From the NCBI GenBank assembly GCA_021234155.1, contig JAJEKV010000307.1, forward strand, positions 297,378 through 361,377: a stretch of 64,000 nt of DNA. The letters run 5' to 3'. Position numbers and translations under genes: made by a program. Below the pieces are notes generated by a model. That model did not search any database. It saw only the letters and a list, made by a program, of their open reading frames with translations, and had not been told where the DNA came from. This document shows, piece by piece, positions 4,732 through 56,524 of this stretch (the first letter of the stretch is position 1; every line of letters begins with the position of its first letter). Source of the DNA: Isoetes taiwanensis (lineage: Eukaryota > Streptophyta > Lycopodiopsida > Isoetales > Isoetaceae).

Positions 4732-4732
4732 C

Positions 4733-29231: not shown

Positions 29232-30837
29232 TGTGACGTTCCAAGTATTTATACGGTATATGTATAAATACATTGATACGTCACCCAATATAGATACGCC
29301 ACCATGGGGTATGGTAACCTAGGAGGTTGACCTAAAAGGGATTTAATTAGCTATGTTAATTAAATCATTAAGGATAATAACCTATGATTAAGGAAATTAA
29401 TAATTAAAAAGGATAATTAAGCCAATTATGGTTTAACCTGGCCAAACTCGATTGGCCAGCATGGGGATTACTAATTGGATCCAATAAGGTGGATCACCAC
29501 CCCCATATCAACCAAAATCGAACCAGTTGAGCGCCCAAGGACCAGTTGAGCGCCTAAGGACTGTTGCTGATTTCACCAAAATCACTGCACAACCACTAGC
29601 TGTTACTGCCACCCTACTTACAGCTATGGAAGCACCCCACGATAACGGTTCCAGCCGAAACACGGGTTAGTAGTAGTTTAGCTTGTGAATTGTATGAAAG
29701 TACTTCAGTACTCTCTTTTCTGATTGCCGTTGTTGAGATTAACCCTTCTCTGGTAAGTAGGATTACATTTCAATTATGAATGGTGCTCTGTTAAGGAATG
29801 GTTGATGTATCTATGAAATATTTGGTAGCTTCTATTAAAAGGGGGTTTAAAGGGGGTAGAGACCTCTCGAGCTCATATATGGTAGTATGCTCCCACGTGA
29901 AACCTTTGTAATATTCCCATTAGTTGCGACACGTGTACAAGAGACCACTTAGGGTCGTAGATGCTATGGTCGGCTTAGCACCGCAGAAGGGACACAAGTA
30001 GGAAGTGGGGGTGGGGTCTTGCACGAACATAAAAGGCTCCCGAGACTCCCTGATGGGCTAGGCGATGGCCGGTCCACGGAGAGGGCGGGTATGGGTCGAC
30101 ACTCCCACGGGTGTAGAGGTGTGATCCGGTATGGAGCATCTTGCACTTTGAGTAGATTTAGGGTGAGTAAGTTGGGTATGCGGATGGGGGGTCGCTGATG
30201 CGCACGTATTCTCTAGCTCACCCATGGAACCACTGTGATCACGGAAGGGGACACTTCCCCGACACCGCCCCGCCGGACCGGGCGTCATGAACCCGGAGTA
30301 GGCTCAATGAGGGTGATACCTTGAGTCTGCGTCTCCGGAAGGCTATAGCGAAGCCATAGCGTGGATCGACCCATCTGCAAAGTGTGCACAGGAGGGGCGG
30401 ATGGAGTGGACAACCCTAGCCGATGTTCTATGCCAGCCAACGCCGGGTTATACCTCTGTCTGCTGATCTCTTGAGACCGAGCCGTCAGTCTATCCTCACA
30501 CGAGTCTGAGCCGGTGTAGAACCTGGGGTTCGGGTGTTTTCTTAGGTTTAGATGCATATTCTATGCCGTCGGTACTTGGATGGATGTGCCACCCTTCGTG
30601 GTGATTATTTATATATAATTTATGTTGTGTGCTAACCCTTGTATTCATGCTTCCGCGACATAGGAGCCCATAGAAGGCGTGGGCCGAATGACACCTCCGT
30701 GTCCTTCACTCGAGTATCTCTACGTAGATGGCCCGGGTCAGACGGAGGGCCCTGCTCATGGCGGGATGGTCGCCATGGGAGGGGAAAGTCCCCGTATGTA
30801 TACGGCCGGGGGTCGTATATATTCAGGGAGCGTCACA
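29232..30837 (+). repeat. Element C 5' LTR
   Basis: 1606 bp, beginning TGTGACGTTCC and ending GCGTCACA, directly followed by the primer site. It is homologous (inverted) to both LTRs of element B, so B and C belong to one LTR family. Confidence 0.92.
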
Positions 30838-30838
30838 G

Positions 30839-30851
30839 TGGTATCAGAGCC
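30839..30851 (+). promoter_or_regulatory. Element C primer binding site
   Basis: TGGTATCAGAGCC, one base after the LTR end; complementary to initiator Met tRNA. Confidence 0.95.
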
Positions 30852-31615: not shown

Positions 31616-33130
31616 ATGGCCAACACCAAGAGTGCTCCGGACCCCACTACCCTTACTATAGCCCAGATCTACGCTTTGATCGCTCGGAATATGGCTGCCG
31701 ACCCTGCTTTGATTGACATACTTCTAGACGAGCTAGTAAAAAGATTCGAGAACAATGATAGGATCCCCTATCCCATTTACCACTTCTCGGAGCCATTCTT
31801 GATCCGACTGAACCTCCGCCAGCTTCCTTACACCATGGCCGAGCAACCTGACTTGGTCATGATGCTGATTAAGTTCTACCCTCCCGAATGTGAAGGACAC
31901 ACCGAGGAGGGGGACATAAGGGATGAGGCCGACCGCATCAAGAACTTGGCCAGGGAGGATGACCGCCGAGAGATAGAACGAGCCGATACGGCGGCTCGGG
32001 GTAGGGAGTACTGGTATCTCGGGGATGGAGTCGTCGTCATAGATGGCAGGGCGATCGAGATTCCCCCATACCGATGGGATGGGGATTCCCGCAGCTTCAT
32101 ATGGGGGGAGATCCCTGATATTAGCATTGATTACTTAATAACAATTCAGATAGATATGGCCCAGCGGCCCAACCGATACCACGCTGAACTCCTTCGCCCC
32201 AGTGTAGCACAACATTATGCTCAGGTTGAAGAAGACCTTAGGAGAGCCCAGGAGTTTCGGGAAGAGCAGGAGAGGATCCAACGGGAGAAGGAGGAGACAG
32301 CTCGGCAAGACCAGCCGAACCCACAGGGGGAAGGGGCATCTGGGAGTGGGCCGGGCCCAACCCCAACAGAGCATACGACGGTGAAGCACCGGAGGAAATC
32401 CGTGGCCCGGAAGTCTGGCAGTCAATATAAGGAAAAACTAAGGACTGTCGGGGCTTTTGGGAAGAACCCGAGCTCCAGTCGGAGGCAGGAGCGGGTGGAT
32501 GCGTCCCGACCAGTTGTTGGGGCCAAGACTGTACCTGCAAAAAGGGGGCCGCCTCCTAACCCTGCTCCACAGAGGAAAGGGCAAAAGTATGCTGGTGGGT
32601 ATCAAAAGCAGGCGTCCGGACACATGCTGACAGCACTCATATAGCACCCCATATGGCAGCTTGTTTAAGGTGTTACTGGTACTAGCACATGGTAATTAGG
32701 TAATCAATAGAAATATGTAACAACTCCAACTAATAACAAGTGGAATACTATGATAGAATAGTACATCCAGGGTGCTGATCTAAGTGCTGGGGCCGCGTTT
32801 TTTTGATACCCACTAGCATACTTTTGCCCGAAACCCCACCGGTACCGACCCGGCACTGTCGCCTTACGGGAGATCCGTAAATTTCAGAAGTCAACTCAAC
32901 TTCTGATACGGAAGCTCCCCTTTCAGAGGTCGGTTCGGGAGATTGCCCAGGAGTTCAAAACCGACCTCCGCTTCCAGACTTTTGCCATCTTGACGCTCCA
33001 AGAGGCTGCGAAGGCTTATCTGGTGGCACTCTTTGGTGACGCCAATCTTTGCGCAATCCACGCAAAAAGGGTCACCATAATGCCTAAGGACTTAGCCCTC
33101 GCCCGCAGGATTCGGGGGGAGCATCCTTAG
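31616..33130 (+). pseudogene. Element C ORF1: N-terminal domain fused to histone H3 fold
   Basis: The frame opens M-A-N-T-K-S, resembling the H3 tail start. It continues through an unknown domain (about residues 1-220), an acidic/charged helix, and a basic linker with A-R-K-S at residues 264-267. At Lys321 it enters a full H3 core: [53 protein letters not shown] and R-R-I-R-G-E before TAG at 33128. By hand I count about 18 differences over about 92 core positions from canonical plant H3. K56- and K79-equivalent lysines are kept. A 251-bp insertion (32579-32829, plus a 4-bp duplication, 255 bp) interrupts it. Without it the frame gives 419 residues. H3 normally pairs with H4 in nucleosomes; its role here is unknown. 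Confidence 0.9.
32579..32829 (+). mobile_element. 251-bp inverted-repeat (MITE-like) insertion
   Basis: It starts GGGCAAAAGTATGCTGGTGG and ends with the near-exact inverse ...CTAGCATACTTTTGCCC (arms of about 29 bp). GAAA flanks both sides (32575-32578 and 32830-32833), a likely 4-bp target duplication. It has no coding capacity and introduces the stop at 32642. The superfamily is not clear. Confidence 0.8.
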
Positions 33131-33331: not shown

Positions 33332-34092
33332 ATGGCAGCCACCGGCCTACTTGCATGGTACCAAGACGGGGAGCATTGGGATCCGCAAGTGCCCTTCGAC
33401 CTGTTGCGCCCCTTGCTATGTCCGCGCCTTGATCTCATCACTAATATGCAGCGGCACCCAGATTATGCCGGGTTCTTAGACTTTTACATGGAGGAGATGC
33501 TTCCTTTGTGTATTCCTCTTGGGGATCCTCCCCAGTTGTATCTGGAACGGGAGGTAGTCCGGGATATGCTAGGGGGTGACACCCACGCGTATGATGTGCT
33601 GAAAGGAAAGCTTAGATGGGGCAAGCACCTGCCCGTTGTGCAGCATCAGGGGCGGCAATATCTTGAAGTTGCCTTCGCCCTAGCCATCCTCATGGATCAA
33701 TATGTTGAGGATGAGACTTTGCCGGCAGAGAAAGGCAAACTTCCTGAATCTTCCGAATAGGGAGAAGATGAGCATATAGGCATGGGCGACTTCGCCCGTT
33801 GAAAGCAGTTGGCAGAGGAGATGCCACCACGCCGGGAGCAAGCTGCATGCTTGTCAGGGCTGGACGCCCTTCCAGTTGTGTATCACCAAGGGCAAGAATA
33901 ACTTCTCTTGGATGATATCATCTGGACCTATCACATGGTGGCCGGATTCAAGCGCCGGCGTAAGGACCATGTGCTCTATGAGCTAGCGGAATACTGTATG
34001 GATGATTTCATCGACTTCGCTCCTATTGAGCTTCCTCAGGAGGTGCAGCAGCTACTCCAATTCCGCCAGGAGACCTTAGAGCCAGCTGAGAC
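33332..34092 (+). pseudogene. Element C ORF2, first part
   Basis: Opens M-A-A-T-G-L-L-A-W-Y-Q. It contains D-Y-A-G-F-L-D-F-Y-M-E-E, then H-L-P-V-V-Q-H-Q-G-R-Q-Y-L-E-V-A-F-A-L-A-I-L and a second similar motif, L-P-V-V-Y-H-Q-G-Q-E. In-frame stops lie at 33758, 33800 and 33899, with no frameshift. It is homologous to ORF2 of element D (49155-50690). The reading frame continues at 44343 and then 58228, giving 469 codons in total (with five stops). No known domain. Conservation between two elements suggests it once had a function. Confidence 0.75.
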
Positions 34093-35814
34093 TGTGACGC
34101 TCCCTGAATATATACGACCCCCGTCCGTATACATACGGGGAATTTCCCCTCCCATGGCGACCATCTCGCCATGAGCAGGGCCCTCCGTCTATCCCGGGCC
34201 ATCTATAGAGAGATGCCCGAGTGAAGGACACGGAGGTGTCATTCGGCCCACGCCTTCAATGGGACTCCTACGTCGCGGAAGCGTGAATACATGTTAGCAC
34301 ACAGCATAAATCATATATAAATAACCACCCCGAAGGGTGGAACATCCATCCAAATACCAACGGCAAAGAATATGCATCTAATCCTAAGGAAAGCACCCCA
34401 AACCCATGGTTCTACCCCGGCTCAGACTCCTGTGAGGATAGACTGACGGCTCGGTCTCAAGAGATCAGCAGACAGAGGTATAACATGGCGTTGGCTGGCA
34501 TAGAACATCGGCTAGGGTTGTCCACTCCATCCGCCCCTCCTGTGCACACTTTGCAGATGAGTCGAATCATGCTATGGCTTCGCTATAGCCTTCCGGAGAC
34601 GCAGGCTCGAGGTATCACCCTGCTGAGCCTACTCCAGGGTTCATGACGCCCCGGTCCGATGAGGCAGGTCAGGGAAGCGTCCCCTTCCAGGATCACAGTG
34701 GTTCCATGGGTGAGCTAGAGAATACGTGCCGCATCAGCGACCCCCGCATCCGTACCCGACTTACTCACCCTAAATCTACTCAAAGTGCAAGGTGCCCCAT
34801 ACGGGTCACACCTCTACACCCAGGGAGTGTCAGACCCATACCCGGCCCTCTACGTGACCGGCTATCAGGCCTAGCCCACTGTAGGAGTCTCAGGAGCCTT
34901 TTATGTTCGTGCAAGACCCCACCCCCACTTCACCACTGTGTCCCTTCTTTGGTGCTAAGCCAATCCATAGCATCTATGACCCGGTGGTCTCTTGTACACA
35001 GGCCGCAACTAATGGGAAGTACAGGGATCTACCTAGGAGCATCCTACTATCATGGCTCAGAGGTCTCTACCCCCCTTAATTCCCCCATTTCCAGAGTAAT
35101 ACTATGCAAAGAACTATCAATCCATCCTTTAAGAGCAAACCCAGAATCAGAATATAAAGAGAACTTACCTTTACAATCAAGGGTTAGTTCCTACAAGTAA
35201 AACACGAGAGAGACGGAAGAAATACACACTACAAGTGCCCAACAGGGGCGCTACCCTAGAATTCCCAAGCTATACTAGCCACCCACCTGAGTTCCTGCTG
35301 GACCCGTTGTCATTTGGTGCTTCCATCTTCCTTGGATTTGGTGCTCAGCTTCAGCTACACAGGTACGTGCTTGGCAAGGGGGTGCTCGGCTCATTTCGGC
35401 AGGCTCGGCTCCTCAAAGGTGGACTTTTCGGCTCCTCTTGGTCGATTTCTTTGAAGGGTGCCTGGCTGCTGCTCCTCCTCCTCCATCTCCACTTGCTCCC
35501 TAATTCGAATTGGGGAAATGGGGTGCAAACCCCAATTTGGGTTCCAAGTTAGTAACTCTCCCTTGCCCAATCGATTTGGGCCAGGTGGCAGCTCCGGGTT
35601 GGCTAATATTAACTAATTTGGTATTTTAGGCCCTTTTAATATTAGATTAAGCCCTAAATTCGAATTAGGGTTTAAGGTTAGGTTTCCACCTTTATAATTT
35701 AATTATTAACATAGCTAACCTTAGCTTATGAATAATTAATGTGCCATTAATTATTCATAGTGACGTGTCACGTATTTATACTTAAAAAGGCGTATAAATA
35801 TGTGGAATGTCACA
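34093..35814 (-). repeat. Element B 3' LTR
   Basis: On the plus strand it starts TGTGACGCTCCC and ends GGAATGTCACA. Strongly similar to 42615-44337 and, inverted, to 29232-30837. Confidence 0.92.
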
Positions 35815-35827
35815 TTCTCCCCACCTT
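35815..35827 (-). promoter_or_regulatory. Element B polypurine tract
   Basis: The minus strand reads AAGGTGGGGAGAA immediately before the LTR start. Element D has the same motif (AAGGTGGGGAGAC) before its 3' LTR. Confidence 0.85.
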
Positions 35828-38800
35828 AAAAGTGATGTTGTCCTCAGCATCAAGACTACTCTTGCTGTGGCCCATACATCGTACATTGGGAGGAAGTCTC
35901 CCCTCCTTAAAGAGATAGCGTGAGATTATAGATCACACAGACTTTGTCACGTTCAAAGTGATTAAGTTTGAAATGACTTGTAATGTGCAATTTATAAGTC
36001 TGGGATATAGAAGGTAGAGGTATAGATTAGACCTGATCATTACAGTCAAGGTGTGTGGAAGTCTCCTTTGTTTTTCTATTGTATTCTATTGAGTATGGCT
36101 AATTTTGAATTCATTGTTTCTATACACACGTGTAATTGATTATGTATTATGGGACAGGTATGGACACAAGCAACTTCTATTTGTTCTTATATTATGATAT
36201 GGAGTTATTAAGCTTCGACTTGTTTAGTAGAAAGTGATTCTAATGATATTAACTTCATTGTATATGTATTATATTCTCCGTCGCTTTTGCAATCCATTTA
36301 ATTCTGACCCGGTAGCTAATTTAATTTTTGTGTCGGACTTTTGTTTTCCTATGTTATTATAGTTTTGACAACTTATAAGGTCCTATCCTCAGTATTTGAC
36401 ATGCCCCTCACATTTAGACTTACCCTTTAATACAATTTTATCGTACTGCAGGTGACATTTTTACCCCTATACTCTAATATGAACTACAAATACGTTCTTC
36501 ATCCATTACTAGTCCTAACCTTCTAAGATAATCTAAGTCTCGTTATTCTCTCAGAAGCTTGTGTAAGACATACATAATTATCTCCTTTTGTTATGTTTGA
36601 TTATGTGTTTAAATAGTTCCTTTTAATTATCTTTAATGTTTCCATACGCTCACTCTATTCTAGTCTATCTTAACCATAGGTTATATTCGTCGATGCCTTT
36701 GAATTACTTATTCATATTATTATTATTTTAAGTAAATTTGTCACACATACGAGACACTCTTATATTTATAGGTACATCTCGCAGATACATTCGACGTGAA
36801 TCGATACTTGGTGGTCGCTATCTGGCGATGCTATGGCCATGCAATCCTCAGTATCCACGAAGGGGCGGTTGTGACTATGGTGTCCACGGCGGGAAGACAT
36901 GCACGGTCCCGCTTTGAGGCTATTATATAATGATGGATATTGCCATTCCACGTAGAAGGAGACTGGATATAGCACCATATATCTGATGGAGAAGTGGTTT
37001 ATGATTATCTACCATCGACCACGTTAGAGAGGTACTAGGCTAAGGTGGATCTGAATTATAAGTACCCAGCTCCTGAAAGGAAGACCACTTGAAGTGTAGG
37101 TTTCGACATTTTATAGCTATTGCCACTTGAATGGAGGTATGACTGTGAAAGGTCGAGAATAATGTTGTATGAGGATGTGGATCCATAAACTACGGATTAT
37201 AAAATTACGCACACGTTACGTTTAGTAAGAAGATTGGTGTTCTGAGGTGTGCAATAACAATGCAAGGGGGTGCATGAATAAGATGACGACATAGTCACTT
37301 GGATACGCTCAATGACGTTGGTCAAATGCATGACCATTACGAAGGATATAAATTAAGGAAATGGACACATCTGATGTCTGCTGGGAACATGGAGATGCCG
37401 AATAAGAGACTGGACAATAATGTGGAACGTAGTTTGCACATAAGGTCAAGAGAAGAGGACAATTGGGAGGAATAGGCACAAGCATCTAAAAAGCTGCGGG
37501 GTATGTTGGATCTTTGGTGAAGCCAGACTATGAAGGAAAGTTGACCTTCAACTAATGATACATTAGGAAGGCAAGTAATGTACCCACACGACAAGTGGGA
37601 GACAAGAGGTGCTTGAAAGTTGTTGTAAACAACGTTTCGAATATAGAACGTTGAATATACCTAAGTCTAGAGTATGAACAAGGTAGGCTCCCAATGAACA
37701 TCTCACCAAGGAGGATGTGGTCTGGACTTGGTATGGTGTGTATATTCCAAGGAGTAACTCCGCGTTGGTATATGTGTACTAGGACCATTTAATAGAAAAA
37801 CATAACTAAAAGAAGATAGGATATATACTAGAACTTTTAGTTCACATTCCATATGAATACGGAAGTAATGAAGATAAGAGTTCTTATACTAGAGATCAAA
37901 CATGTCCACAAGGAACTTAAGATGGCATTTGCCCGTGTGGAAGTTATGACTAGAGGTTGAGGACCAAGGCAAACTAAGACTAGAGACATGTCTAGGGTAC
38001 CGGATAACCAAGTTGAGGAAATAAGTTGGCATAAGTAGGAATATAACTAGATGCCTATGTCAACGAGTTACATATGAGTGTAGACTTAAGGTTGGTGCAC
38101 ACATGTTACTATATCATATAATAACAACGTAGCGGTCTTGGATGTTGGAAGGACTTAGTAGTATCAAATACTACACTAGCGAGGATATCAAGGATGTCGA
38201 TTGTGACATCCAGATGTATGTCATATTGGAAGATGGTAGAATATTAGGTACAAGGCTGGTGGCACGTTACATTGGCAATGTTCTGAAGAAGCATAATGAT
38301 ATGCTTATATACGAAGATATTGGGTTAAGGTATGGTCCACCAGAGATATGCACTCAAGCTATTACTAAGGGAGATGAGAAGAGTTTAAATCAATGAGAAT
38401 AGCTAGAGTAAGTCTAGCATATACGGTGACGTCACATTGAAGAACATCCCGAGGATGGTTGGAGCAGTATTGGAATAACTTAGATAATGAGAGGTTAACT
38501 ACTCAAAGGTTCGGATATGAATGAATTACTTCAACGTTATAAGCTGAGAGCATTTATTTGGTTTTGGGAATAAAAAGATATATCAAATCGCGTCCCCTTG
38601 ACAGAAGAGAAGAAGGAGTACGACGACTTTGGTGATTACATCTTTAGGGATAACCGAGAAGAGGGCAATAGATAGAAATTCCATGTCCCGATAAAAATCA
38701 AGACGAGAGGTATAGATTAGAAGGGGTGAGATTATATAGACCAGTAGTCCATATATCCTAAGAGTTACCCTACTCGGGGGGAACAATTGTAGGTACGGAA

Positions 38801-41800
38801 GTAGAGGCTGGAGGATCCGTTGCCTTGCGGCATAGACCCGTTAGAGATTATGACTTTGAAACCCTTAAGAGGGTAAGGAATTGGATAATCATATGGCGGT
38901 TACTAACGAAGATTGAAACATTGGGTTTCCTATTAGAAGACCAGGAGGTTTTAGTGCCTCCGCTTCATTATGAGGGAGCCAAAGACGACAACATTCAAAG
39001 GGATCAAAAGTTGAGGTTGACATGCTAATTTAAGAAAAATAGGTTAGGTGTGACAAAACATGGCGAAACGCAAATTAACTGAACGAACCTTTAGAAAAGG
39101 CCTTGGACTATGGTAGAAACCTTTGGAACTATGGCATAATCCCATGGGAAAATTATAGTTTATGTACGGGGTTAAAGTACCATAAGTTTAAATTCATCCC
39201 TTTTAGGTCAACCCCTTAGGTTAAGATACTCCATGGTGGCATTACCTTTATTGGGTGGCGATGTCACTTATTTATACATTATACCGGTATAAATACGTGG
39301 AATGTCACATTCTCCCCTCTTAGAAATAATGCCTCCCTCAAGATTGGGGTTAATCAAACAAATGACGGTTAATCGAAAACTGCAATAGAAGAAAGTATAC
39401 ATAAAAAGGAAGGTAATTCCTTATTTCCAAAGGTAATAGCATGAAAGCTTAAAACATGGAAGAGTTTAAGCACCAAGGTGCATTTGATATACTTATCATA
39501 AGAAGGTTTAAGGACCGAAGTCCGATATCAAACATCACCGTAACAAAAAGGTAACACATGTAGATAAGGTAAAACTGGAAAAGTCGGGCCATCAGCAACC
39601 CTCTATACATGGGCAGGTCACGTACTGCTTACTGGCCTGCACATGTGAATACATCAGCATGTACAAGTCCAACATAGAGTTATTTTGCCCATTTGGGAAG
39701 TAAGTGGTACATCCACATCATAAGAACTACGAAGGTTATATTTTTTTACGTTAGAGCAGAGCTCTAGTATTGTGGGATATGTTTATTATGTACATACCAT
39801 GTACATATATGATAAACATCTTGGAGAAGTAATCCAAGTAGCCATAGAAAGGAGAGAAAATGAGTGTACTCCAAAGTTACTACTGAAGGGTATGGAGCTA
39901 TATTCGAAATGCACAAAGGACCGTCAATCCATTGCATGCTAGGGTAGTTGGCACTTGAAATAAATGTCAAGGGCCCACAAAATAAAGGTCAAGATGATGG
40001 AGTTGAATAGTACAATAGTACAATTCTAGGATGAGTAGCAAATAGCAGGTACTTGCTAGAAGTTCAAATGTGTTTTGCATAGACACTTAAGACTATCTTT
40101 CCCACATGATCCATACCGGATCAGAGGGAAAAGCATGGGTTACATGGAGAGAATATACAGGACTCGAACATGGATACAAGTCCAGTTATATCAAATGTCG
40201 GTATTGTAGGAAGACTCATAAAATACCGTGTAGACACCTTGATGACTCCGGGTAATTTAGGATTAGTAACGAAGGCTCACCAGCTCTTAGGCCATGACTA
40301 TGGCTTAAATGAGGATGCCAAGTCATTTAGAATGCCGTAACAACAACATAACATCATGATGAGAGAAATGTAATAACTAACATTTGGAGGATGTAGAACA
40401 ACGTTGAATCATAACCCCAATGATAGGTGGGTCAACAATATAGGGAACATATAATAGCGGCTTAGAAGCCACAAGACGATTGATGAATACGTAAAGGAGT
40501 AATTGGATTGGTGACTCCATCGAGTAAAGGTCACAACAAAGCGGTGAGTTGTGTATGCGTAGCAGCGTAAGGGTCGGAATACTGAGGACCCTTATTAAAG
40601 ATGTTTAGCAATCTGAGTAGAAAGGTTATTGTCTAACATGAAGGGTAATCCTTGCTAACATGCGAAGATATATCTGCGGCTTGAAAGGCAGCAAGAGCTG
40701 AAAAACTCTTTAAAGATTTGATGTATGACTTAAGGAAGAAGACTTCCATGTCCTAGGACAAGATGGTGAATTGAATTTACCAAAGACATTTTTAATAATT
40801 AAATAGATAGGTAGATAGCATTTATCACGTCATGCCATGTTGGCGGCGTCCATGAGGACATATGAGGAACCCTCAGAGACTTGAAGACAAGATCTCCGGA
40901 TAGAGGAGGCCTAGCTTTGCAGGTCTTGTGTGGTATTGTCCTTCGGGATAGTCACATAATCCCTTGGAATATGTAAGTTCATTTCATGGACTTCGGGACG
41001 TTTAGGCATTAAAATAATGGTTGGAAATACTTTGTCTCGGATCATATCTAGATATCCTAGAAGATAGATATCCTAGAAGGAGGATAGCCAACAATAGTTG
41101 GATGTCATTGGACCCTTACAAAGGGAAGAACCCCAAAAAAGAGGGTAGGGTGGGCCGTCGGTTGTTTGGCGGTGGCACGAATAATTATTCACGCCATATA
41201 GGCGGTGAGGTTTGGCACAAAAATAATACTCAAAGTTTGTAGCCGAGGATTGATTTAGAATGAAGGTGTTAACACTATTGTAGGGTCTAACACAAGCACT
41301 CATTACGTATTCTGGGGTATGTATCGTGGTCCGGGGAAATGGTCCACAAAAAGAACATGACCATTGAGAAAAAGTAGTGAAGGGTGGTAGGATTAAAGCT
41401 ACCCATGGTCTAGCTAGAAGGGTCTTTGCATGCAGTCCCTAGTTGGTTGGGCGAGAAGAGATCCTTTTTTCTAGGAAGTGAGGCGAGTCAAGGTTTAGAT
41501 ACTAGAGGGAGACAACGTTAATTACAGTTATGTCTATAAAACATTACTTATATAACGTCGAATAAGGTCTAATATAATGCATATGAATGTAGTATGGATT
41601 GAATCATGGCAAGGCCCGAAGAAATTGTGTTATCAAGGCATCTAAAAAAAAAAAATATAGGTCGAGGAAGCCAGATAATCGGATATTATTATCGCCGCTT
41701 AAGGAATATCCAAGGATATAACACATGCTGCTATCCTAGAGAATTGCCCTGTCGTTATTAATTAAATTCCGGAATTAGTCCCACCAAGTGAGTTGATGTT

Positions 41801-42080
41801 ATCATAACAAGTTGGCCGGACTTGCTAGATTACGTCGTTTCATTTGGTCGGTTTATTCCTAGGGGATACTAGCTTTATATATGGTTAACAGTTATCCGGT
41901 CGACTATGGCAGAGAGAGGTTGACTCCCGTGGCTATCGCAAGACTGCTTACTCTGGCGGCTATGGCAAGAGAGCTTGCTCCAGCGGAGTTGTTGCCTCCA
42001 CAACGTGGATCTATAGAAGGTAGTCTTCTAATTTAAATAGAAAACAGAGCCACTATAAATAAAATGAGAACTATTATATT
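35828..42080 (-). other. Non-coding interior of element B
   Basis: No frame here shows gag, protease, RT or integrase motifs on either strand; the longest frames are 60-85 codons. It contains a partial LTR (39060-39314) followed by a polypurine-like tract, so the interior is itself a mosaic. Confidence 0.75.
39060..39314 (-). repeat. Partial C-type LTR inside element B
   Basis: Read on the minus strand from 39314, TGTGACATTCCACGTATTTA and the following motifs (GCCACCATGG, AACCTAAGGGGTTGACCTAA) match the first part of the C LTR at 29232 onward. The GGGGAGAA-type tract to its right (39315-39325) resembles the PPT/LTR junction of B. About 250 bp of LTR is recognisable. Confidence 0.75.
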
Positions 42081-42180
42081 CTTCAATAGAGGAACTTAGC
42101 CCATTGGTAAAGGGGTTGACTTAGTTGTAGGAGGTTAAGGGTTCAATCCCACAATATGCCCCTTTCTTTTAACTAATTTT
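42080..42180 (+). repeat. tRNA-related, SINE-like segment
   Basis: TAGCCCATTGGTAAAGG (42107-42123) resembles an RNA polymerase III A box, and GGTTCAATCCC (42140-42150) a B box, at tRNA-like spacing. It is followed by T-rich sequence. The acceptor and T stems do not pair well, so it is not called as a tRNA gene. Confidence 0.4.
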
Positions 42181-42219
42181 TTTGAAATTTTAACCCTAAA
42201 AATTTTTTTAAAAGAAAAA

Positions 42220-42440
42220 GTGGCGGAGCGCGCTTTTCGAGGTGGCGGGCACCCCCTACCTCGACGTTGCTACGGCCGCCAGGAGCGTCCGGGTACCCCC
42301 TGCCCGCCACTTAGGGTTAGGGTTTTTTTTTTTTTTTTTTAATTAGGGTGGCGGGCACCCCTACCCGATGTCGCCCACCGTCGCCGGCAAGAACAATAGG
42401 GTACCCCCCGCCGCCACTTAGGGTTAGGGTTTCGCACCGG
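42220..42440 (-). repeat. Two GGCGGGCA foldback modules with teloboxes
   Basis: Two units (about 42236-42325 and 42350-42435), each starting GGTGGCGGGCACCCC and ending GCCGCCACTTAGGGTTAGGG or similar, separated by a T run. The minus-strand string AACCCTAAGTGGCGGGCAGG is shared with the Copia LTR at 5033-5107. AAACCCTAA is the plant telobox. Confidence 0.75.
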
Positions 42441-42596
42441 GTACACTCCTCTTAATCCCACTTAAACCAAATTAAGTCAATCATGACGACATCTACTACA
42501 CCACCCAAATCTCATACTACTCCAAAATCCTCACTCACTAGCTAACGATCTAACGAGTTTGACATGGCCAGTGCTATGATCTGGTCCACCAAAATC

Positions 42597-42614
42597 ATGG
42601 CTCACGATACCCTT
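42597..42614 (-). promoter_or_regulatory. Element B primer binding site, altered
   Basis: The plus strand reads GGCTCACGATACCCTT next to the 5' LTR, where GGCTCTGATACCAC would be expected. The identical altered string occurs in the unrelated Copia copy at 57-72. Confidence 0.7.
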
Positions 42615-44337
42615 TGTGGCGGCTCCACGAATATATACACGACCCGTACAGTATACATACGAGGGGACTTTCCCTCCATGGCGACCATCTCGCCATGGCG
42701 AACCCCCTCCGTCTATCTGGGGCCATCTATAGAGAGATGCGAGTGAAGGATTTCTGAGGAGGTGTCATTCGCCCACGCCTTCAATGGGACTCCTACGTCA
42801 TGGAAGCGTGAATACATGTTAGCACACAAAGATAAATCATATATAAATAACCACCCCGAAGGGTGGAACATCCATCCAAATACCAACGGCAAAGAATATG
42901 CATCTAATCCTAAGGAAAGCACCCCAAACCCATGGTTCTACCCCGGCTCAGACTCCTGTGAGGATAGACTGACGGCTCGGTCTCAAGAGATCAGCAGATG
43001 CAGGTATAACATGGCGTTATGGCATAGAACATCGGCTAGGGTTGTCCACTCCATCCGCCCTCCATTGCACACTTTGCGGATGAGTCGAATCATGCTATGG
43101 CTTCGCTATAGCCAGCCCCCGGAGACGCGAGGGCTCGAGGTATCACCCGCTGAGCCTACTCCAGGGGTTCATGGCGCCCGGTCCGATGAGGCAGGTCTCG
43201 TGGAAGCGTCCCCTTCCGGGATCCTGATGGTTCCATGGGTGAGCTAGAGAATACGTGCGCGATCAGCGACCCCGCATCCGCACGACTTACTCACCCTAAA
43301 TCTACTCAAAGTGCAAGGTGCCCCATACCGGGGTCACACCGCTACACCCTGGGGAGTGTCGGACCCATACCCGCCCCTACGTGACCGGCTATCAGGCCTA
43401 GCCCACTGTAGGAGTCTCAGGAGCCTTTTATGTTCGTGCAAGACCCCACCCCCACTTCACCACTGTGTCCCTTCTTTGGTGCTAAGCCAATCCATAGCAT
43501 CTATGACCCGGTGGTCTCTTGTACACAGGCCGCAACTAATGGGAAGTACAGGGATCTACCTAGGAGCATCCTACTATCATGGCTCAGAGGTCTCTACCCC
43601 CTTAATTCCCCCATTTCCAGAGTAATACTATGCAAAGAACTATCAATCCATCCTTTAAGAGCAAACCCAGAATCAGAATATAAAGAGAACTTACCTTTAC
43701 AATCAAGGGTTAGTTCCTACAAGTAAAACACAGAGAGAACAGAAGAAATACACACTACAAGTGCCCAACAGGGGCGCTACCCTAGAATTCCCAAGCTATA
43801 CTAGCCACCCACCTGAGTTCCTGCTGGACCCGTTGTCATTTGGTGCTTCCATCTTCCTTGGATTTGGTGCTCAGCTTCAGCTACACAGGTACGTGCTTGG
43901 CAAAGGTGGCGCTCAGCTCGGCAGGCGCTCAGCTCCTCAAAGGTGACGCTCAGCTCCTCTTGGTCGATTTGCTGAAGGGTGCCTGGCTGCTGCTCCTCCT
44001 CCTCCATCTCCACTTGCTCCTAATTCGAATTGGGGGAAATGGGGGTGCAAAACCCCAATTTGGGTTCCAAGTTAGTAACTCTCCCTTGCCCAATCGATTT
44101 GGGCCAGGTGGCAGCTCCGGGTTGGCTAATATTAACTAATTTGGTATTTTAGGCCCTTTTAATATTAGATTAAGCCCTAAATTCGAATTAGGGTTTAAGG
44201 TTAGGTTTCCACCTTTATAATTTAATTATTAACATAGCTAACCTTAGCTTATGAATAATTAATGTGCCATTAATTATTCATAGTGACGTGTCACGTATTT
44301 ATACTTAAAAAGGCGTATAAATATGTGGAACGTCACA
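42615..44337 (-). repeat. Element B 5' LTR
   Basis: 1723 bp, paired with 34093-35814. The two LTRs differ mainly at CAG/CTG-containing places, for example TTTGCAGATG versus TTTGCGGATG. Confidence 0.92.
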
Positions 44338-44862: not shown

Positions 44863-46533
44863 TGTGACGTTCCAGCACAGTATACGGTCCCAGGACGTAT
44901 ACTGTACTGCCCCGTCACGCGTACACACCATCCCGACTGACGTGTACGCCGACATATAGCCAAGTGGGTAGCCCTAGGGGGCAACTTGCTAGAAATGTGC
45001 ATTGGCATTAATGTGCACATTTACCAATGTACACATTAATGTGGGCACACATTTCCATATGGACACCTTATGCCAAGTGGGCCATACCCATAGGTGCAAT
45101 TAATGTGCACATTTTCCAATGTGCACCTTCATTAATGTGCACACATTTCCATGTGGGCACATTTTGCCACCTAACCATTAATGGCAAGTGGGCCCATTCC
45201 CAATTATCCCACATGCCAAAAGGGGATAATTGGAAACCCTAACCAACCCCCATGTCTATTTAGGAGGGGAAACCCTAACTTGCCCATTTTCGTTTCTAGG
45301 GTTTTTGGGACTCCGTTTTGGCTGCCTCAAGAGCCAAAAACCGCATCCCGAACCACCTCGAGTGAACTGTACCCTTAGTTTCCCTTGATTCGAGTGTTTC
45401 AGCAGGATGGTCGAGCTCAGGTCAGGAGGAGTCCCTCAAGGATCAGGTATTTAGGCAATTTAATAGCTTAAACCCTCTTTTAGTCATAAAATCAGTAGGT
45501 TTAGCCTAATAAATTGCTCATAGCAGCCTTCTAGATCCCTAGATACCAGACTCTAACTAAAGAACCTAACTCTATGATATAGATTAGATCTTGTTCTTTA
45601 GTTCTCTTATGATGTATGTGGATGATGTATCTCTATGAATTCCTTGTATTGGGAAGGGGGGTAGAGACCTAAAGCTTGGTAGTGGATGCTCCTAGATTAG
45701 CCTCTCTAGCACCATATAAATTCGGCCTGTGTACAAGAGCCACACCGGGTTGTGGGTGAAAGGGCCGACCGGGCCGAGAAGGAGGTTCCCTGTCGACTCT
45801 TGAACGATCCCTCCGGGTGTGTAAAGCCTACCGAGGGATCATTGTGACTAGGTCCGATGGCTGCCCTTTGCGTGTGGGCAAGGCATGGGCTCGACACACC
45901 GTGAAGTGGTGTTCACTTTCCGGTGGGTTCCGTCGAATAAGGGCAAAGGGTGGCCCTCTAGTCACCTTGAGTCGGCAGGGTAGATCTCCGGAGGGAGTGA
46001 TCCCTACCGCCCCATCGAACCGGGAGGATGAACCCGGGGAATAGCCCTTTCGGCTATGCATCCCGGGGGCATCGGGTCCCAACACTTTTCAACCTACTCG
46101 CAAGCAAAGTGTGTAATGGGAGGGGCGGATGGAGTGGACAACCCTACGCCATGTTCTTATGCCGCCAAATCCATTGCCATGAATTACATGCGCAATGATC
46201 TCTCGGAGACCCAAGCCGCTGGTCATTCCCTTGAGCCTGAGCCTTGGGTAGAACTCCCCATATGCATTGTGCTCACCTTGTTTATGCAGATGTGATGGAC
46301 CACCTTTCGAGGTGGCTATGTGCTTATGTTATATATTGACATGTATGTTTACGCTTCGCAGGCTAGGTAGACCCTGAGGGAGACGGGGTAAATGACCCCT
46401 TCACTCTTCCCACTGGAACCCGTCACGGTTGCAGTGTTATGTGGAGGGCCCTGTATCGGCATGGAGTCTGGTATGGGGATGAACTCGCTTTGTATACGGT
46501 GAGTGCACCGATAATTCAGTAGGGGACGTCACA
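44863..46533 (+). repeat. Element D 5' LTR
   Basis: 1671 bp; starts TGTGACGTTCC and ends GGGGACGTCACA. The outer eight bases TGTGACGT and ACGTCACA are exact inverse complements. Confidence 0.95.
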
Positions 46534-46534
46534 G

Positions 46535-46546
46535 TGGTATCAGAGC
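46535..46546 (+). promoter_or_regulatory. Element D primer binding site
   Basis: TGGTATCAGAGC, one base after the LTR; initiator Met tRNA type. Confidence 0.95.
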
Positions 46547-46730
46547 AATGTTCTTGGTGACCAAGAGCAAAGCACTGACCATGTCCCCAGTAGTACTAAC
46601 TTGATAGGATCCTTAAACCTCGAAAAATGGGAAAACTTTTTCTCATTTTTGTAGTTTTGCTAAGCTAGTAACAGTTAAAATGAATAAAAACGTAACAAGA
46701 CTAAAAGTGGTGAGCCAACATCCGTGGGGT

Positions 46731-46800
46731 GGTCTCACACACGTCAAGCCAGACGCATTTTGAGATTCTCAAAAATCGGGCCGGCATAACGCGATGAGAC
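46731..46800 (+). repeat. Palindromic module, copy 1 (before ORF1)
   Basis: GGTCTCAC...GCC...TTTTGAGATTCTCAAAA...GGCC...GAGAC: an imperfect 70-bp palindrome, one of four in element D. Confidence 0.85.
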
Positions 46801-46932
46801 ATATAAATTTTAATCGCTAAAAAGTCATAAATCACAGTAAAATAACTTGATAAATCTAAATTTAAGCTAAGAATCATTAGAATTGGCATATTACATGTTT
46901 TAAAAGTACAAAATTTAGTAGTGGGTCCACCA

Positions 46933-47003
46933 TGTCTCACACGTCGGCGCCGGGACAGATTTTGAGATTCTCAAACCCGGGCCGGGCGCAACGCGGTGAG
47001 ACC
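46933..47003 (+). repeat. Palindromic module, copy 2 (before ORF1)
   Basis: GTCTCACACGTCGGCGCC ... GATTTTGAGATTCTCAAA ... GGGCGCAACGCGGTGAGACC. Ends about 74 bp before the TATA box of ORF1. Confidence 0.9.
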
Positions 47004-47076
47004 TTGCTTAATTAGGGGTTTTAGATGTTTAAGCAACCCAAAAAGGTAGTTTAAAAGTTGACCTAAAATTGACCCC

Positions 47077-47084
47077 TATAAATA
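47077..47084 (+). promoter_or_regulatory. TATA box of element D ORF1
   Basis: CCCCTATAAATAGACC is a textbook plant TATA box, 111 bp before the ORF1 ATG at 47188. The leader has AGGCGATCTTCC at 47143-47154, also found before ORF2. Confidence 0.75.
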
Positions 47085-47187
47085 GACCTAGACCCCTCCC
47101 ATTCCCACGTTCCTTCCTTAGAAAAATTGCTCGTGACCGCCAAGGCGATCTTCCGGCGCTTAGCTCCGATCGACGAAGCAGCAAATG

Positions 47188-48440
47188 ATGGCCCGCACAA
47201 AACAGATCGCAAAGGAAGCCTTCCGCCCGGCGAATCATCCCGGCCAGTGCGTTCTGCCTCTTCGGGGAGGGTCCTACAAGAACGCCTTTTTTCGGGGAAG
47301 GCGATTCCTCGAAATTTAAGATGCAGGATCGGATCGGAGCGACCACACCGAGATCAATCATACTAATCGCCAGACATCATGCATCAAATCCTAGAGGACA
47401 TCGCAAATGAGGAGGAGAGGACCAGGAGTTTAAGGAGCGCACAGGCAGCCAATAGCCGAGGAGCAACACCAGAATGAGACCCACACTCAGGAGGAGCAAG
47501 GGAGAGAAGAGCAGCAGCCGCCGAAGCTCACCCCGGATGAAGAAGCCGATCTTGCACGCTTCATAAGCAAGTATGAAGCCAAAGAACGCACGGAGCAGAG
47601 GGACTTAAGAGTCGGAAGACGACCACCACGCCACCGGCCAAAGAAGAGAAAGGCCAAAGCCATCAAGGCAGCCGCAAGAAAGTTGTGAAGGTAAGCAGTT
47701 TGTGGCGGCGACGGGTCCCCGTGAATCAACTAACCATCAGCGAAGAGACCCCGCCTTCCAATCGGGACGCACTCGGACCAAGACTACGCACTCCGCACGG
47801 ATGGAGCGAGTTCGTCAAAACCCACGCCTGTAGAGAAGGAAGTGCCCCAGCAGGTAGCACAGGAGCAGGAGGAGGCCGGGCAGGTGGCGAAGCCCCCACC
47901 GTTCCCGACGTGGGATAGGGTCAAAGCCCCACGCCACAACGGGAGGTATATGTGATAGACCCCGCCAAGGTCTATCGTAAGAGGATCAAGGAGCACAACG
48001 CTTACATGGCTAAGTTGGAGGCCTACAATGCCTATTACCGTGAGCAATGTGGTGAGAACGACAAGGCGCACACCGACCTAAGAGTCGCATTAATCGGCCC
48101 CTCCACCAAAGCCCAAGCCTCCCGAGCACCGTGAAAGAAGCTGGCCGGCAAGAAGAAGTTGGAGAACAGAGCCTTCAAGGAAATCCGGCACTTCCGGAGA
48201 AGTTACGGACTCTTGATCCCCCGCACCGCTTTCAACGCTTGGTCCGCGAGGTTATGCAGGAGTATAATACAGACATGCGGGTGACGGATGAGATGCTGTT
48301 GTGCTTACAGTGAAGCGCCAGGTTTAAAAATAGTGCAAAGATTTTGAAGATTCGACTACCGCACAAGACACGCGAAGAGGGTTACCCTCATGAGGCAGGA
48401 CATGTATCTTGCCAGGCACATCAAGGGAGAACGCCCTTGA
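47188..48440 (+). pseudogene. Element D ORF1: H3 tail motif and divergent H3 fold
   Basis: ATG at 47188 opens M-A-R-T-K-Q-I-A-K-E-A-F, matching the H3 N-terminus around Lys4. After about 44 codons the frame closes. The middle is split among frames (one piece, 47952-48134, reads D-P-A-K-V-Y-R-K-R-I-K-E-H). The C-terminal part is an H3 fold: A-F-K-E-I-R-H-F and L-L-I-P in frame 0 from 48171, R-F-Q-R-L-V-R-E-V-M-Q-E-Y-N-T-D-M-R in another frame (to 48313), then H-A-K-R-V-T-L-M-R-Q-D-M-Y-L-A-R-H-I-K-G-E-R-P back in frame 0 before TGA at 48438. The K56 and K79 positions are not Lys. R-H-F, L-L-I-P and V-T-L-M-R recall plant CENH3, but the fold lacks its longer loop 1. Broken as written. Confidence 0.85.
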
Positions 48441-48584
48441 GACTTTTGTAAATAACAGAAATTTTGTTAATATAAAGAATTTTGTGGATAAATAATGTGT
48501 CTAATCTAGCTTAATTAAGTCAAGTTATAGAATTCTAGCTTTTGATTTGATAAAATTGGAGTTTTTAAGCAAAATTGAGACGAT

Positions 48585-48652
48585 GTCTCACACGTCGCGC
48601 CAGGACAGATTTTGAGATTCTCAAAATCGGGCTGGGCGCAACGTGTGAGACC
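48585..48652 (+). repeat. Palindromic module, copy 3 (before ORF2)
   Basis: GTCTCACACGTCGCGCC ... GATTTTGAGATTCTCAAAATC ... GGGCGCAACGTGTGAGACC: the most nearly perfect of the four palindromes. Confidence 0.9.
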
Positions 48653-48783
48653 ATGCCCAAAAGTGCCCAAAACAGCTCCAAATCGACCAAATAAGGGGTC
48701 AATTCTGCCTAACTCGACGAGTTTAGTGGAATTACAGCCTTAAATCACCCAAATTGATTAAGTCTAGTCCAATTAGGACCCAT

Positions 48784-48847
48784 GTCTCACACGTCACGCC
48801 AGACGTAAAATGAGATTTCTCAAAATCGGCCTGGCTAACGGTGAGAC
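48784..48847 (+). repeat. Palindromic module, copy 4 (before ORF2)
   Basis: GTCTCACACGTCACGCC ... TGAGATTTCTCAAAATC ... GTGAGACC, slightly shorter than copy 3. Confidence 0.85.
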
Positions 48848-49032
48848 CTCGCCTCGTGTCATTTTCTTCACCAAATGATCTCCAAGTTGTTGCAATAGGT
48901 TCATTAGTTGTTCTTAGCATGCTCAAACCCTAGAAGTAGTCTTCAAACTTACAATTGCATCCTTTAATAGGTCAGAATCACCTAATCTCAGTAAATTCTA
49001 GGTCATCCAAAAATTAGGGTTTCCCCATTTTC

Positions 49033-49040
49033 TATAAATA
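49033..49040 (+). promoter_or_regulatory. TATA box of element D ORF2
   Basis: TTTCTATAAATAGGTCC lies about 120 bp before the ORF2 start. It is followed at 49090-49101 by GGCGATCTTCC, as before ORF1. Confidence 0.75.
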
Positions 49041-49154
49041 GGTCCATCATTTTTCATTTGATACCCCGCAAGTTTGTCTCCATCGCTAGGGCGATCTTCC
49101 AGCCTCCCCGAGGCGCTCGTCAGATTCGCTTGATACCCCTTCCTTGCTAGATCA

Positions 49155-50690
49155 ATGGCCACCGGGCCGACTTCACCGATGGTACCAGCCAAAGGTCCAT
49201 GTCGGTTGAGGCAGATGTCAATGACATCTTCCAAGTCTTTGGCAAAGAAATTGACATCCAAGCTACGCTAAATGCAACCCCAGCATATAGACAAGTCCTA
49301 GCAGAATTCCAAGCTAAGGTAGGACCCTCCCTTGTCCAGGTCCCCCCTTGCATAGGCTATTTTGTTCCCCGCCCATCCCTTCAAGCAGCCTTGGGGGATG
49401 TCCCCAACATCGCCAAGTACCTGACCAACAAAGCGCAAAGGCTGCCAGACTACATGGTCCTGACAGCCAACAGGACCAAGTACTTCTCCTACACCGCGGC
49501 CTTAGCCATCTTCTTATCCCACCGTGCCGAAAACCCAATGGGGGCAACCTCTATCCCTCCGATGGAGGTGGACCCCATAGCAGCGCAGGAGGAAGAGCAG
49601 ATGCGCTTGCAGTATCAGCAAGAGCAAAAAGGAAAAGACGAAGAAGAAGAGGAGTCCGACGACAATAAGTACACGGAGCTCGACTCAGAGGAGGAACGGC
49701 AACAAGCAGAACAGGAGATGGTGAACTTCGAGCAGAGCCGGCAGAACATCAGGATTGCTCCCCCACTCGGGCTAGGTATCACAAGCCTAGCCCCGATCAT
49801 CATCAACGGAGAGGAATATTTACTCCTCAGCGACATCCAGAACCTTCCCGAGTGCAGGGAGAGGGAGCTCAGATTGGATGAATTACTCCACCAGCTACGG
49901 CAGTCGGACTTGGACGACTTCATCGTCCGGGAACCTCGACTTTCCGGCCTATAAGGGAAGCCGACAATTTATACAGAGAGTCGACTTCAGATATACAGCC
50001 TACAAAGAAGATCGTGCAAATGATGGAGGAGCAAGAGCTGCCAACGGAGGAGGAGGAGTCGCCTCCAGAACAGATGGGGATCCGTGGGAAGACCACGAGC
50101 ATTCTAATGCCGAGACCTTCGACACCACCTCCATTAAGAGGAGAAGGAATCGACCTCAGGCGAATCGACACCATAATCGAAGACTACAGGGAGCTCACCG
50201 AGATAGAGATCGACGAATACGCGGGACGGCATAGAACAGAGGTCAATCGAATGAGAAGCTTCAACGACGCGACAATGACAGTGTCCCCGAGGTACTACCT
50301 CCCGCTCGTCGCTAGATGGTAGAATAGCGTAATCCACCGCAAGTTCAGCCCCAGAGGTGAAGAAGGAGTGTTCATGCCGATTGCACTCAAAGCCGGCAGT
50401 AGCATGCTCGCATAGATAGCCAAATGTCGACTATGCTGCCCCGGTCAAGAGAGCAATGGCACTTGACCTTCGACTTCGCCATACCCCATCGACGCCAGCG
50501 TAGATTACGGCCACCGCAGCCTTTACATCCCAATCGTGGTAGAAGATCCGGTGAGAGGCCTTGCGTATGCTCGCCGCCAGCATCATCGTGAACTTGGGTC
50601 ATTCGCAGGAACGCCCAAGTTAAAAAGTTCCTTGAGGACAACCCCGCTTTTACCGCGATTTCAAGACTAGTTAGACTCTTGATCCCTGAG
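49155..50690 (+). pseudogene. Element D ORF2, unknown conserved protein
   Basis: A start M-A-T-G-P (49155) resembles M-A-A-T-G of C, but the frame shifts within about 15 codons. The main frame (49199-49954, 251 residues) has Y-R-Q-V-L-A-E-F-Q, Y-F-S-Y-T-A-A-L-A-I-F-L, a Glu-rich acidic stretch, then A-P-I-I-I-N-G-E-E-Y-L-L-L-S-D-I. After a shift near 49950 it continues (50014-50322) through I-D-E-Y-A-G-R-H-R-T-E-V-N-R and decays by 50690. The same motif order occurs in ORF2 of C. Not gag, which follows separately. No known family. Confidence 0.7.
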
Positions 50691-50852
50691 ACTTTTTGTA
50701 CTAAAATATTATATAATATATGAATATAATCTCTGTTGCACTTTAAATGTTTTGTTGATATATTTTATTCCACAATTATGCCAACAAACCATAAACAATG
50801 CGGGAGAACAAGTAAAACTAACCATATAGCCATGAATTACTTGTGTATGCAG

Positions 50853-51725
50853 TTAGAGGCCTAGGCTCAGGCGAGCGACAACGCCAAGACCTTAGGGAAG
50901 AATGCACTCGCCTGCACTACCCCCCGCAAGGAACTTATTCAAGAAATGGAACCCATGACCCCGTGAGGAGGAGATATCCCAGATGAGGACGGACCTTGAA
51001 CAGATAAAGGCTCTCTTAGCCGCACAAGCAGGAGCAGGTTCGGTGGGCAATGCTCAATTGCCACAAGCATTAGCTCGGAAAACGGGAAGGGACAAGAAGA
51101 GGAGCAAGAGAAGGAGATCCCCCAGCTCGGATTCCTCCGACTCAAGCTCAGACTCAGACTCCGACTCCGAGGAAGAGGAAGAGCGGGCCCAGGACCAAAC
51201 AGATGGAAGGCAAAGGAACACCAAGAGGGAAGGCGCGAGAAACACCCCGGATGGACGACAAAGGGACACTAGGGCCTCTGACTACCGAAGAAGGTAGATT
51301 CCGCACTGGGCAATGTATGGAAGGCCCGGAAACTGGAACAGTTCTCGGGGGAGAACAGGTCAGGATTAGAAGCAGAGGCATGGCTGGACGAGATGAGTGA
51401 GTACGGCAATGCTTATGGCATGAAGGATAAAGACAAAGGAAGAGTGGCAACAGCCAACTTGAAGGGAGCCGCACGGATTTGGTGGAAGGGTTATGCAAAG
51501 GCACATGGCTTAAGCAGGGATGCTTGTAAGTTCAGGAAGTTTGCTAAAGCCTTCAAGCGCCATTACGTTCCAAGGGAACATAAGTCCAGCATGATGCAAC
51601 AGTTCTATAGGCTCCAACAGGGAAACAAATCAGTCCAGAAATATACAGAGGAATTCATGAGGTCGAGGTCAGATGTGCCAAAATTGGGTGAGAAGCATGC
51701 AAGAGAAAGCTATATTGAGAGGTGA
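50853..51725 (+). pseudogene. Element D gag
   Basis: An AG splice-acceptor-like site (TTGTGTATGCAG, 50852) precedes this region. The N-terminal part (50983-51294) is Ser/Asp/Glu- and Lys/Arg-rich. After shifts the frame at about 51380-51720 reads W-L-D-E-M-S-E-Y, A-T-A-N-L-K-G-A-A-R-I-W-W-K-G-Y and F-K-R-H-Y-V-P-R-E-H, the Gypsy retrotransposon gag domain (PF03732 type). It continues with Q-Q-F-Y-R-L-Q-Q-G and Y-T-E-E-F. It would form the capsid. Confidence 0.85.
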
Positions 51726-51839
51726 ATGAGGAGATCCGCAAGTTTGTGAGGGCAATAAACCCTAAGACAAGATCGGGGCGAGTCCAAGGCTATAAGCTTG
51801 CAAGGGACGGGACCTCGTAATAGCGGGGGCGAGGCAGAA

Positions 51840-52122
51840 AGATTTCCGTGACAAAGGCAAGGCGACAGTGGAACTATAGCCCTAGAGCAGCCAGTCCAGG
51901 TCCAGCTAGAGCCCCATATGGTGGCAACCAGGGGAAACAGCAGGAGAAGAAGCAGGTGTCCTTCAAGGACAAGCAGGAGGGGTCAAACTACTCCAAAGCA
52001 AAGGCGATCCTTTTGCGGCGATGCCCAAGGAAAAGAGACAGAGTGCATAGAAAAGCAGCCTTTGCTTTCCGTGTGCTTCCACCAAAGCCATAGGACAAGC
52101 CGAACCGCCCCTTACGCCATGA
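51840..52122 (+). pseudogene. Element D zinc-knuckle region, degenerate
   Basis: Around 52010-52050 a frame reads C-G-D-A-Q-G-K-E-T-E-C, the remains of a CCHC knuckle. H-E-C-K-L-A-E-L-G follows in another frame just before the protease. It links gag to protease. Confidence 0.5.
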
Positions 52123-53640: not shown

Positions 53641-53779
53641 CCGCTAACGTAATTTGACGAGGGCGGAGAAAGTGAAAGATTGGGCGAGCATTGGCACAAG
53701 AAAGCCAAGCTGTGGTTTGAACCGCTGAAGGAAGCTTTAACAACCGCCCCAGCCTTTAACCCCGCCGGACCCGGAGAAA

Positions 53780-54147: not shown

Positions 54148-54354
54148 GTGCATTGCAATGTAATTTCGACGCCTCCAAATGACTTTGGTAAGAAGATTGA
54201 AGAGTCTTTGCCAACGGATATGGATTTCAAGAAAGTATGGGCAAGCCTCTCGAGGGAGGCTAGAACAGATAAGGAGCGGGAAGCCTTTAGACATTATAAG
54301 AAGGAAGGCAACCTGTTATACCATAAGAACAAGTTGTGCGTACCCGAATCATCA

Positions 54355-56520: not shown

Positions 56521-56524
56521 CACA

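Follow-up and report, generated by a model that had tools for sequence, protein, structure and literature searches.

In 2011 Steinbauerova and co-workers reportedly described chromoviruses of the Poaceae whose extra ORFs are in part similar to histone H3. These share with the locus studied here the chromovirus, the position of the extra ORF 5' of gag and the similarity to H3. The similarity is, however, reported as partial and for one grass family, whereas in Isoetes one element family (C) has a core covering H3 residues 37-135, another (D) has an exact H3 start, and purifying selection could be measured. The statement of the initial annotation that no described Gypsy family encodes H3 is probably too strong, given the similarity reported for the grass elements.

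In rice, RetroSat2, RIRE3 and RIRE8 are LTR retrotransposons with an ORF upstream of gag-pol, as here; according to the main text, this ORF0 is fast-evolving and was not found outside grasses (PMC3485330). That main text does not contain the word "histone" (PMC3485330). For the N-terminal domain of the Isoetes ORF no relative was found in a database including nr, the comparison with rice ORF0 being one by description only. The REXdb survey, in its available part, names the plant mobile domain, Transposase_28 and Athila ORF-1 as extra-ORF domains and no histone (PMC6317226). Judging by titles and the beginnings of abstracts, none of the papers listed in full-text searches for histone or H3 ORFs in retrotransposons deals with a retrotransposon-encoded H3.

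Single viral H3s, e.g., those of Manila clam xenomavirus and DSLPV1, show 73-87% fold identity to the H3 of a possible host; some have longer N-terminal tails, and they are thought likely to join host nucleosomes (PMC9145170). They belong to DNA viruses and have 35-68 residues added, while the Isoetes proteins belong to LTR retrotransposons and have about 320; the words "retrotransposon" and "retroelement" do not occur in the available text of this review (PMC9145170). The bracovirus histone CpBV-H4 is reported to join host nucleosomes and to act through its N-terminal tail (PMC5423620). It can serve as a working model for a possible role of the Isoetes ORF, but it is an H4, it comes from a wasp virus acting in a parasitised insect, and no retrotransposon is involved (PMC5423620).

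Element C and its interrupted ORF1

The window analysed here is a stretch of 64,000 nucleotides of Isoetes taiwanensis DNA (contig JAJEKV010000307.1, positions 297,378 to 361,377). Its left part holds an element at 1-5187 (minus strand), presumably Copia-like judging from its ORFs, with terminal repeats at 1-515 and 4666-5187 (91% identical) and a tRNA-Met primer site at 4731 (minus strand). Two host gene pieces follow on the plus strand, one with a NIF/CTD-phosphatase domain (PF03031, 15362-15895) and one with the start of an FMO-like monooxygenase (PF00743, 19002-19394).

Element C is located on the plus strand, as are all features described below unless noted otherwise. Its 5' LTR (29232..30837) starts with TGTGACG, ends with CGTCACA and is strongly diverged in its 5' half: BLAST comparison with a related LTR at 34093-35815 gave 88.8% identity over 29841-30837 and patchy matches of 73-80% over 29231-29694. 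The LTR is followed by a primer binding site, TGGTATCAGAGCC (30839..30851), which is of the tRNA-Met type. The leader between this site and ORF1 includes an imperfect 90-bp direct repeat (31145-31338, 83%), which is present at many other loci as well.

ORF1 was delimited by frame reading and alignment to genomic copies. Its N-terminal domain and basic linker occupy 31616..32578 (321 codons, starting with MANTKS), in agreement with the N-terminal part of about 320 residues named in the initial annotation, which had also recognised a complete H3 core at the ORF1 end. This core, together with its stop, lies at 32831..33130 (32831-33127 and 33128-33130, respectively). It matches Pfam Histone (PF00125) with an E value of 1.5e-38 (132.2 bits against a cut-off of 26.4), its best PDB match is H3.3 (2.5e-51), and 83 of 99 residues are identical to plant H3.3, the other 16 being different in the window copy. 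The core corresponds to H3 residues 37-135 and ends with RGEHP.

The N-terminal part and the core were said to share one reading frame. They are indeed in the same frame, but this frame is not open in the window copy: its open part covers 31616-32644 including the stop (342 codons), and all in-frame stops, at 32642-32806, belong to a 251-bp insert (32579..32829, no strand assigned) located exactly between the N-terminal part and the H3 core. Repeat reading showed that the insert is MITE-like, with 29-bp terminal inverted repeats which differ by one mismatch and start with GGGCAAAAGTATGC, and with GAAA on both sides. All 20 uninterrupted genomic copies lack it and read straight from the N-terminal part into the core. 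An intron between the two parts was considered and rejected, since the gap is a TIR-flanked insert missing from the 20 uninterrupted copies. Three substitutions of the window core (L70S, A91T, E97K) were found in none of the 19 uninterrupted cores compared and therefore look private to this broken copy.

No Pfam family above the cut-off, PDB chain or protein-database relative was found for the N-terminal part of ORF1; searches of databases including nr returned no relatives at an E value of 0.001, nor at 0.01 with a profile of 19 sequences. Two attempts to model ORF1 with AlphaFold2 gave low confidence (mean pLDDT 44-45). When protein databases were searched for fusions that include the H3 part, 3321 matches resulted, and the four inspected among the 120 listed were each two ordinary H3 proteins joined together.

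The next ORF of element C, ORF2 (33332..34090), is a second extra ORF, now broken into two open pieces without a Pfam family. The initial annotation placed ORF1 between the primer site and gag. The primer site is at 30839. A reading of the ORF at 33332 as gag is not supported, as its Pfam scan was blank; a gag-like stretch is found at 59715-59924. Two further elements inserted into element C account for the distance of about 26 kb between the 33332 ORF and this stretch. One of them, element N (34093..44337, minus strand), was found by repeat search; it interrupts ORF2, belongs to the LTR family of C, and has 94% identical LTRs and a target site duplication GAGAC. Its LTRs are 89% identical to that of C, and its 6.8-kb interior has a single stop-to-stop frame of at least 110 aa. 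Element N is probably non-autonomous and perhaps mobilised by C-type elements. The other one, element D, is inserted further downstream and has an H3 of its own.

Beyond the nested elements, a degraded gag-pol covers 59715..63813. Its beginning (59715-59924) is 47% identical to the D gag over 72 residues, and an RNase H domain (PF17917, 2.4e-7) is located at 62101-62325; an RVT_1 match at 61586-61786 stays below the cut-off (E 0.055), and five other pieces scanned within this region have no Pfam match. The nesting suggests that this gag-pol is probably the continuation of element C. No chromodomain was matched where it would be expected for C (63500-63706 and 63622-63813), and no 3' LTR of C was found within the window. 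The features seen for element C are an LTR, a primer binding site and, probably, the degraded gag and RNase H of the window copy. When two LTRs were sought in one other copy, the fetched sequence showed no LTR similarity, so the two-LTR proof rests on the window elements D and N.

Genomic copies and selection on ORF1

The genome searches covered an assembly of 1,658,258,908 bases in 1110 contigs. Copy numbers given here are lower bounds, as they count the best-scored places. A search with the H3 part of element C scored 150 places (the best of 8845 first-look candidates); they are 92-100% identical to it, and 140 are free of stops. The N-terminal part gave 118 scored places at 72-100% identity on many contigs. 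Among 90 fetched loci, 27 have an uninterrupted ORF1-H3 frame; 20 of these frames are distinct (400-421 aa), and each of the 20 proteins matches Pfam Histone. As the script collecting uninterrupted copies demanded M(A/T)xTK at the start, a GExP-type end and an internal RPGT.ALREI, conservation of these motifs is partly built in; moreover, the H3-ranked list supplied 17 of the 20 copies.

A second sample of 49 copies was taken from the places ranked by the N-terminal part. It consists of the 29 best places after the window's own (L042-L070) and 20 hand-picked ones (L071-L090), with no stop in any N match and largely missing from the H3-ranked list. At least 80 H3 codons are present in 47 of them, and L074 and L087, which have fewer, were dropped. 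The 29 loci L042-L070 were fetched with about 1500 bases upstream, and 24 of them contain the primer binding site 12-mer TGGTATCAGAGC exactly; an exact match is missing at L045, L056, L064, L067 and L070. The LTR end together with the primer binding site is present in most of these 29 loci.

The initial annotation had named beforehand, as the finding that would speak against an element gene, a host pseudogene inserted once and carried by no other copy. What we found is 140 stop-free H3 places out of 150 and H3 in 47 of 49 N-ranked copies. Canonical H3 is separate from all these: its search gave 15 full-length places at 97-99% identity, the other 135 scored places being at most 87% identical. 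We take the 15 places as host genes; this count covers single-exon genes, and H3 genes with coding introns would escape it. With the H3 and N-part places spread across many contigs and the LTR end and primer site present in most of the loci examined, we give next to no credence to an assembly or annotation artefact or to a single host pseudogene.

Estimating dN/dS of the H3 part was among the checks proposed in the initial annotation. In the 47 N-ranked copies the N-terminal domain has a value of 0.115 (codon-bootstrap range 0.086-0.151), the linker one of 0.216 (0.153-0.294) and H3 one of 0.077 (0.057-0.096); the bootstrap used 150 random pairs and 60 replicates. The ranges of H3 and the N-terminal domain overlap, and a stronger constraint on H3 is therefore not clear from this set. 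In the 20 uninterrupted copies the values are 0.105, 0.247 and 0.024. In both sets the constraint on ORF1 is weakest in the linker (0.216-0.247). Of the 47 copies, 8 have stops in H3 and 11 have them in the N-terminal part, the latter count being biased down since copies were chosen without stops in the N match.

Variants common to at least two copies have nonsynonymous/synonymous ratios of 0.105 (N-terminal domain), 0.167 (linker) and 0.069 (H3), and singletons have 0.499, 0.736 and 0.486. These counts omit codons more than one base away from the commonest one (202 in the N-terminal domain, 114 in the linker, 62 in H3) and treat stops as nonsynonymous. The contrast has the direction expected for selection during element activity followed by decay after insertion. 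It is not a clean contrast with neutral decay, since the singleton ratios are about 0.5-0.7 and not 1.

LTR elements commonly capture fragments of host genes, and the H3 part might be a chance acquisition of this kind, a passenger without function. The dN/dS of 0.02-0.08, the shared-variant ratio of 0.069 and the occurrence of H3 at the same place in two families make such a passenger very improbable. The proposal that a retrotransposon encodes H3 has held up, with many copies, the primer-site context and a second element family having its own H3. The functions suggested along with it (loading of H3 onto element DNA, changes in host chromatin, competition with host H3) are hypothetical. Since many copies carry H3, dN/dS is low and a second family exists, ORF1-H3 belongs to the retrotransposons, where purifying selection maintains it, and is not a host pseudogene.

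Element D and the type of H3 encoded

Element D (44863..58222) was found by repeat search as a nested chromodomain LTR element with both LTRs (91% identical) and a target site duplication CCTAT. Its gag, protease, RNase H, integrase zinc finger, Tf2-1 SH3 domain and chromodomain are located at 51282..55806 (PF03732, PF08284, PF24626, PF00385, PF17917, PF17921). By its LTRs with target site duplication, tRNA-Met primer binding site, gag, protease, RNase H, integrase and chromodomain, element D is a Ty3/gypsy chromovirus. In comparison with HP1, the chromodomain (PF00385, 55219-55806) seems to have kept one residue of the three that form the aromatic cage, and its binding of methylated K9 is therefore doubtful.

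According to frame reading, the first part of D ORF1 (47188..48170) begins with MARTKQ and contains frameshifts and stops in the window copy. The H3-like end (48171..48440) is broken there too, but it is 36.6% identical to the H3 of C (BLAST E 5.5e-9) and matches Pfam Histone at 9.6e-7 when stops are taken as residues (29.5 bits, cut-off 26.4). The next open frame, D ORF2 (49151..49954), has no Pfam family; many genomic copies of D-type ORF2 keep frames of about 529 aa. Both H3-carrying elements thus have a second extra ORF behind ORF1 (33332-34090 in C, 49151-49954 in D), and neither matches Pfam.

In the genome, the D-type H3 search gave 150 scored matches, many in frames of at least 400 aa, the PDB match of D-type H3 is H3.3 (5.2e-28), and an H3-like match lies upstream of D-type ORF2 in six of six copies sampled as short pieces. 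Five D copies are 53-58% identical to canonical H3 over the aligned fold (E 1.3e-33 to 9.8e-35); in one of the five, L096, the match is interrupted by a stop, and in the sixth copy, the frameshifted L095, it falls into two pieces (39 and 50%, E 2.7e-15). Over 70 codons of five copies we counted 126 synonymous and 10 nonsynonymous pairwise differences, a ratio of 0.021. Since the D core lacks the RPGT start and is only 53-58% identical to H3.3, D may no longer form normal nucleosomes.

The D-family start ARTKQTARK is exactly H3 residues 1-9, K4 and K9 included. Of eight D frames sampled at their computed starts, six have MARTKQTARK or MMARTKQTARK from the first ATG on; L104 and L106 do not have it, the motif of L104 being just upstream and out of frame with the sampled stretch. 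A degenerate DNA pattern for MARTKQTARKP was found at 419 places of the genome and at none in a reversed control. C copies mostly start with MA(N/I)TK, and in the linker of 12 of the 20 uninterrupted ones ARKS stands directly before GSQYK.

These motifs raise the possibility that ORF1 acts as a histone-tail mimic or sponge, occupying host H3 methyltransferases or readers and so weakening the silencing of the element. It is the main rival to a chromatin-anchoring role, because D keeps K4 and K9 in their exact context and C often keeps ARKS (ARKS or ARKT precedes GSQYK in 14 of the 20 uninterrupted copies). We nevertheless consider it unlikely: C ORF1 is least constrained in its linker, ARTKQ is lost in C, and a sponge would need no histone fold, yet the fold is strongly kept.

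Plant H3.3 is diagnosed by Y41, L90, H87 and T31. In the 19 uninterrupted C cores L90 is kept in all and Y41 in 16, H87 is F in all, and the tail with T31 is replaced. All 19 differ from plant H3.3 by Y54F, E59Q, S86T, H87F, V89I, G102A, T107A, I124L, Q125A and A135P; E105G is present in 18 and R134H in 16, and at D77 13 cores have E, 5 have Q and 1 has L. The proline replacing the C-terminal alanine is common to C and D.

CENH3 typically has a lengthened loop 1 with a tryptophan. In both C and D this loop has canonical length and no W, so neither shows the CENH3 feature tested. Scores against H3.3 and Arabidopsis CENH3 were 182 and 109 bits for C, and 108 and 87 bits for D. We also considered D as a captured CENH3, as it shares KEIRHFQK, LLIP and RVTLMR, but rejected this because its loop 1 is not lengthened and the scores favour H3.3. 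A tree of 17 short sequences grouped D at 100/98 and C at 79/85 (rough bootstrap values); it leaves D unplaced relative to CENH3 or H3.3 and is compatible with one capture for C and D as well as with two.

Origin and possible roles of the ORF1 protein

As D shares the canonical H3 start and C and D share the core, capture of a complete intronless H3 message would be the simplest origin. An ancestral element may have captured this message from the start codon to the stop codon, after which a long segment would have come between the first H3 residues and the core.

The histone fold is where H3 meets H4, the partner H3 and DNA. Strong constraint on the fold combined with a replaced or diverged tail fits a protein which is assembled with host H4 and brings a new N-terminal cargo. 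Both families conserve the fold strongly but differ in tail and linker, and for this reason we favour chromatin anchoring. In this scheme the ORF1 protein would be translated and bind host H4, host histone chaperones would accept it, and the N-terminal extension might then recruit element particles or DNA to target chromatin or mark newly made element DNA. Judging from the sequences, we find the arguments for and against evenly balanced as to whether the selected H3 core in ORF1 of these two abundant LTR families pairs, as seems likely, with host H4, enters nucleosomes and anchors the extension of about 320 residues.

The same fold could also work outside host nucleosomes, if ORF1 used it to bind and compact element RNA or cDNA in particles. 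A packaging protein would be consistent with the position of ORF1 upstream of gag in D, with the basic linker and with the location of the catalytic gag-pol domains elsewhere in the element. We regard it as rather improbable, since H3 acts on DNA jointly with H4, which was not noticed in the elements, and the residues for nucleosomal histone-histone contacts are kept too.

A more far-reaching reading is put forward tentatively, with somewhat more doubt than confidence. A retrotransposon lineage may long have owned a selfish histone, i.e., a variant H3 with an extension of 320 residues, which would be placed in host nucleosomes and steer where the element DNA goes or how it is silenced. The elements hold far more copies of H3 than the host, for which 15 full-length single-exon genes were found. 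If the ORF1 protein enters nucleosomes, the genome would offer hundreds of natural H3 variants that have long extensions and whose past selection is recorded, as material for studying the separate contributions of fold and tail. The chromodomain of chromoviruses is thought to read chromatin. Here, chromodomain elements also encode a histone, and if its protein enters nucleosomes, a mobile element would write its own chromatin.
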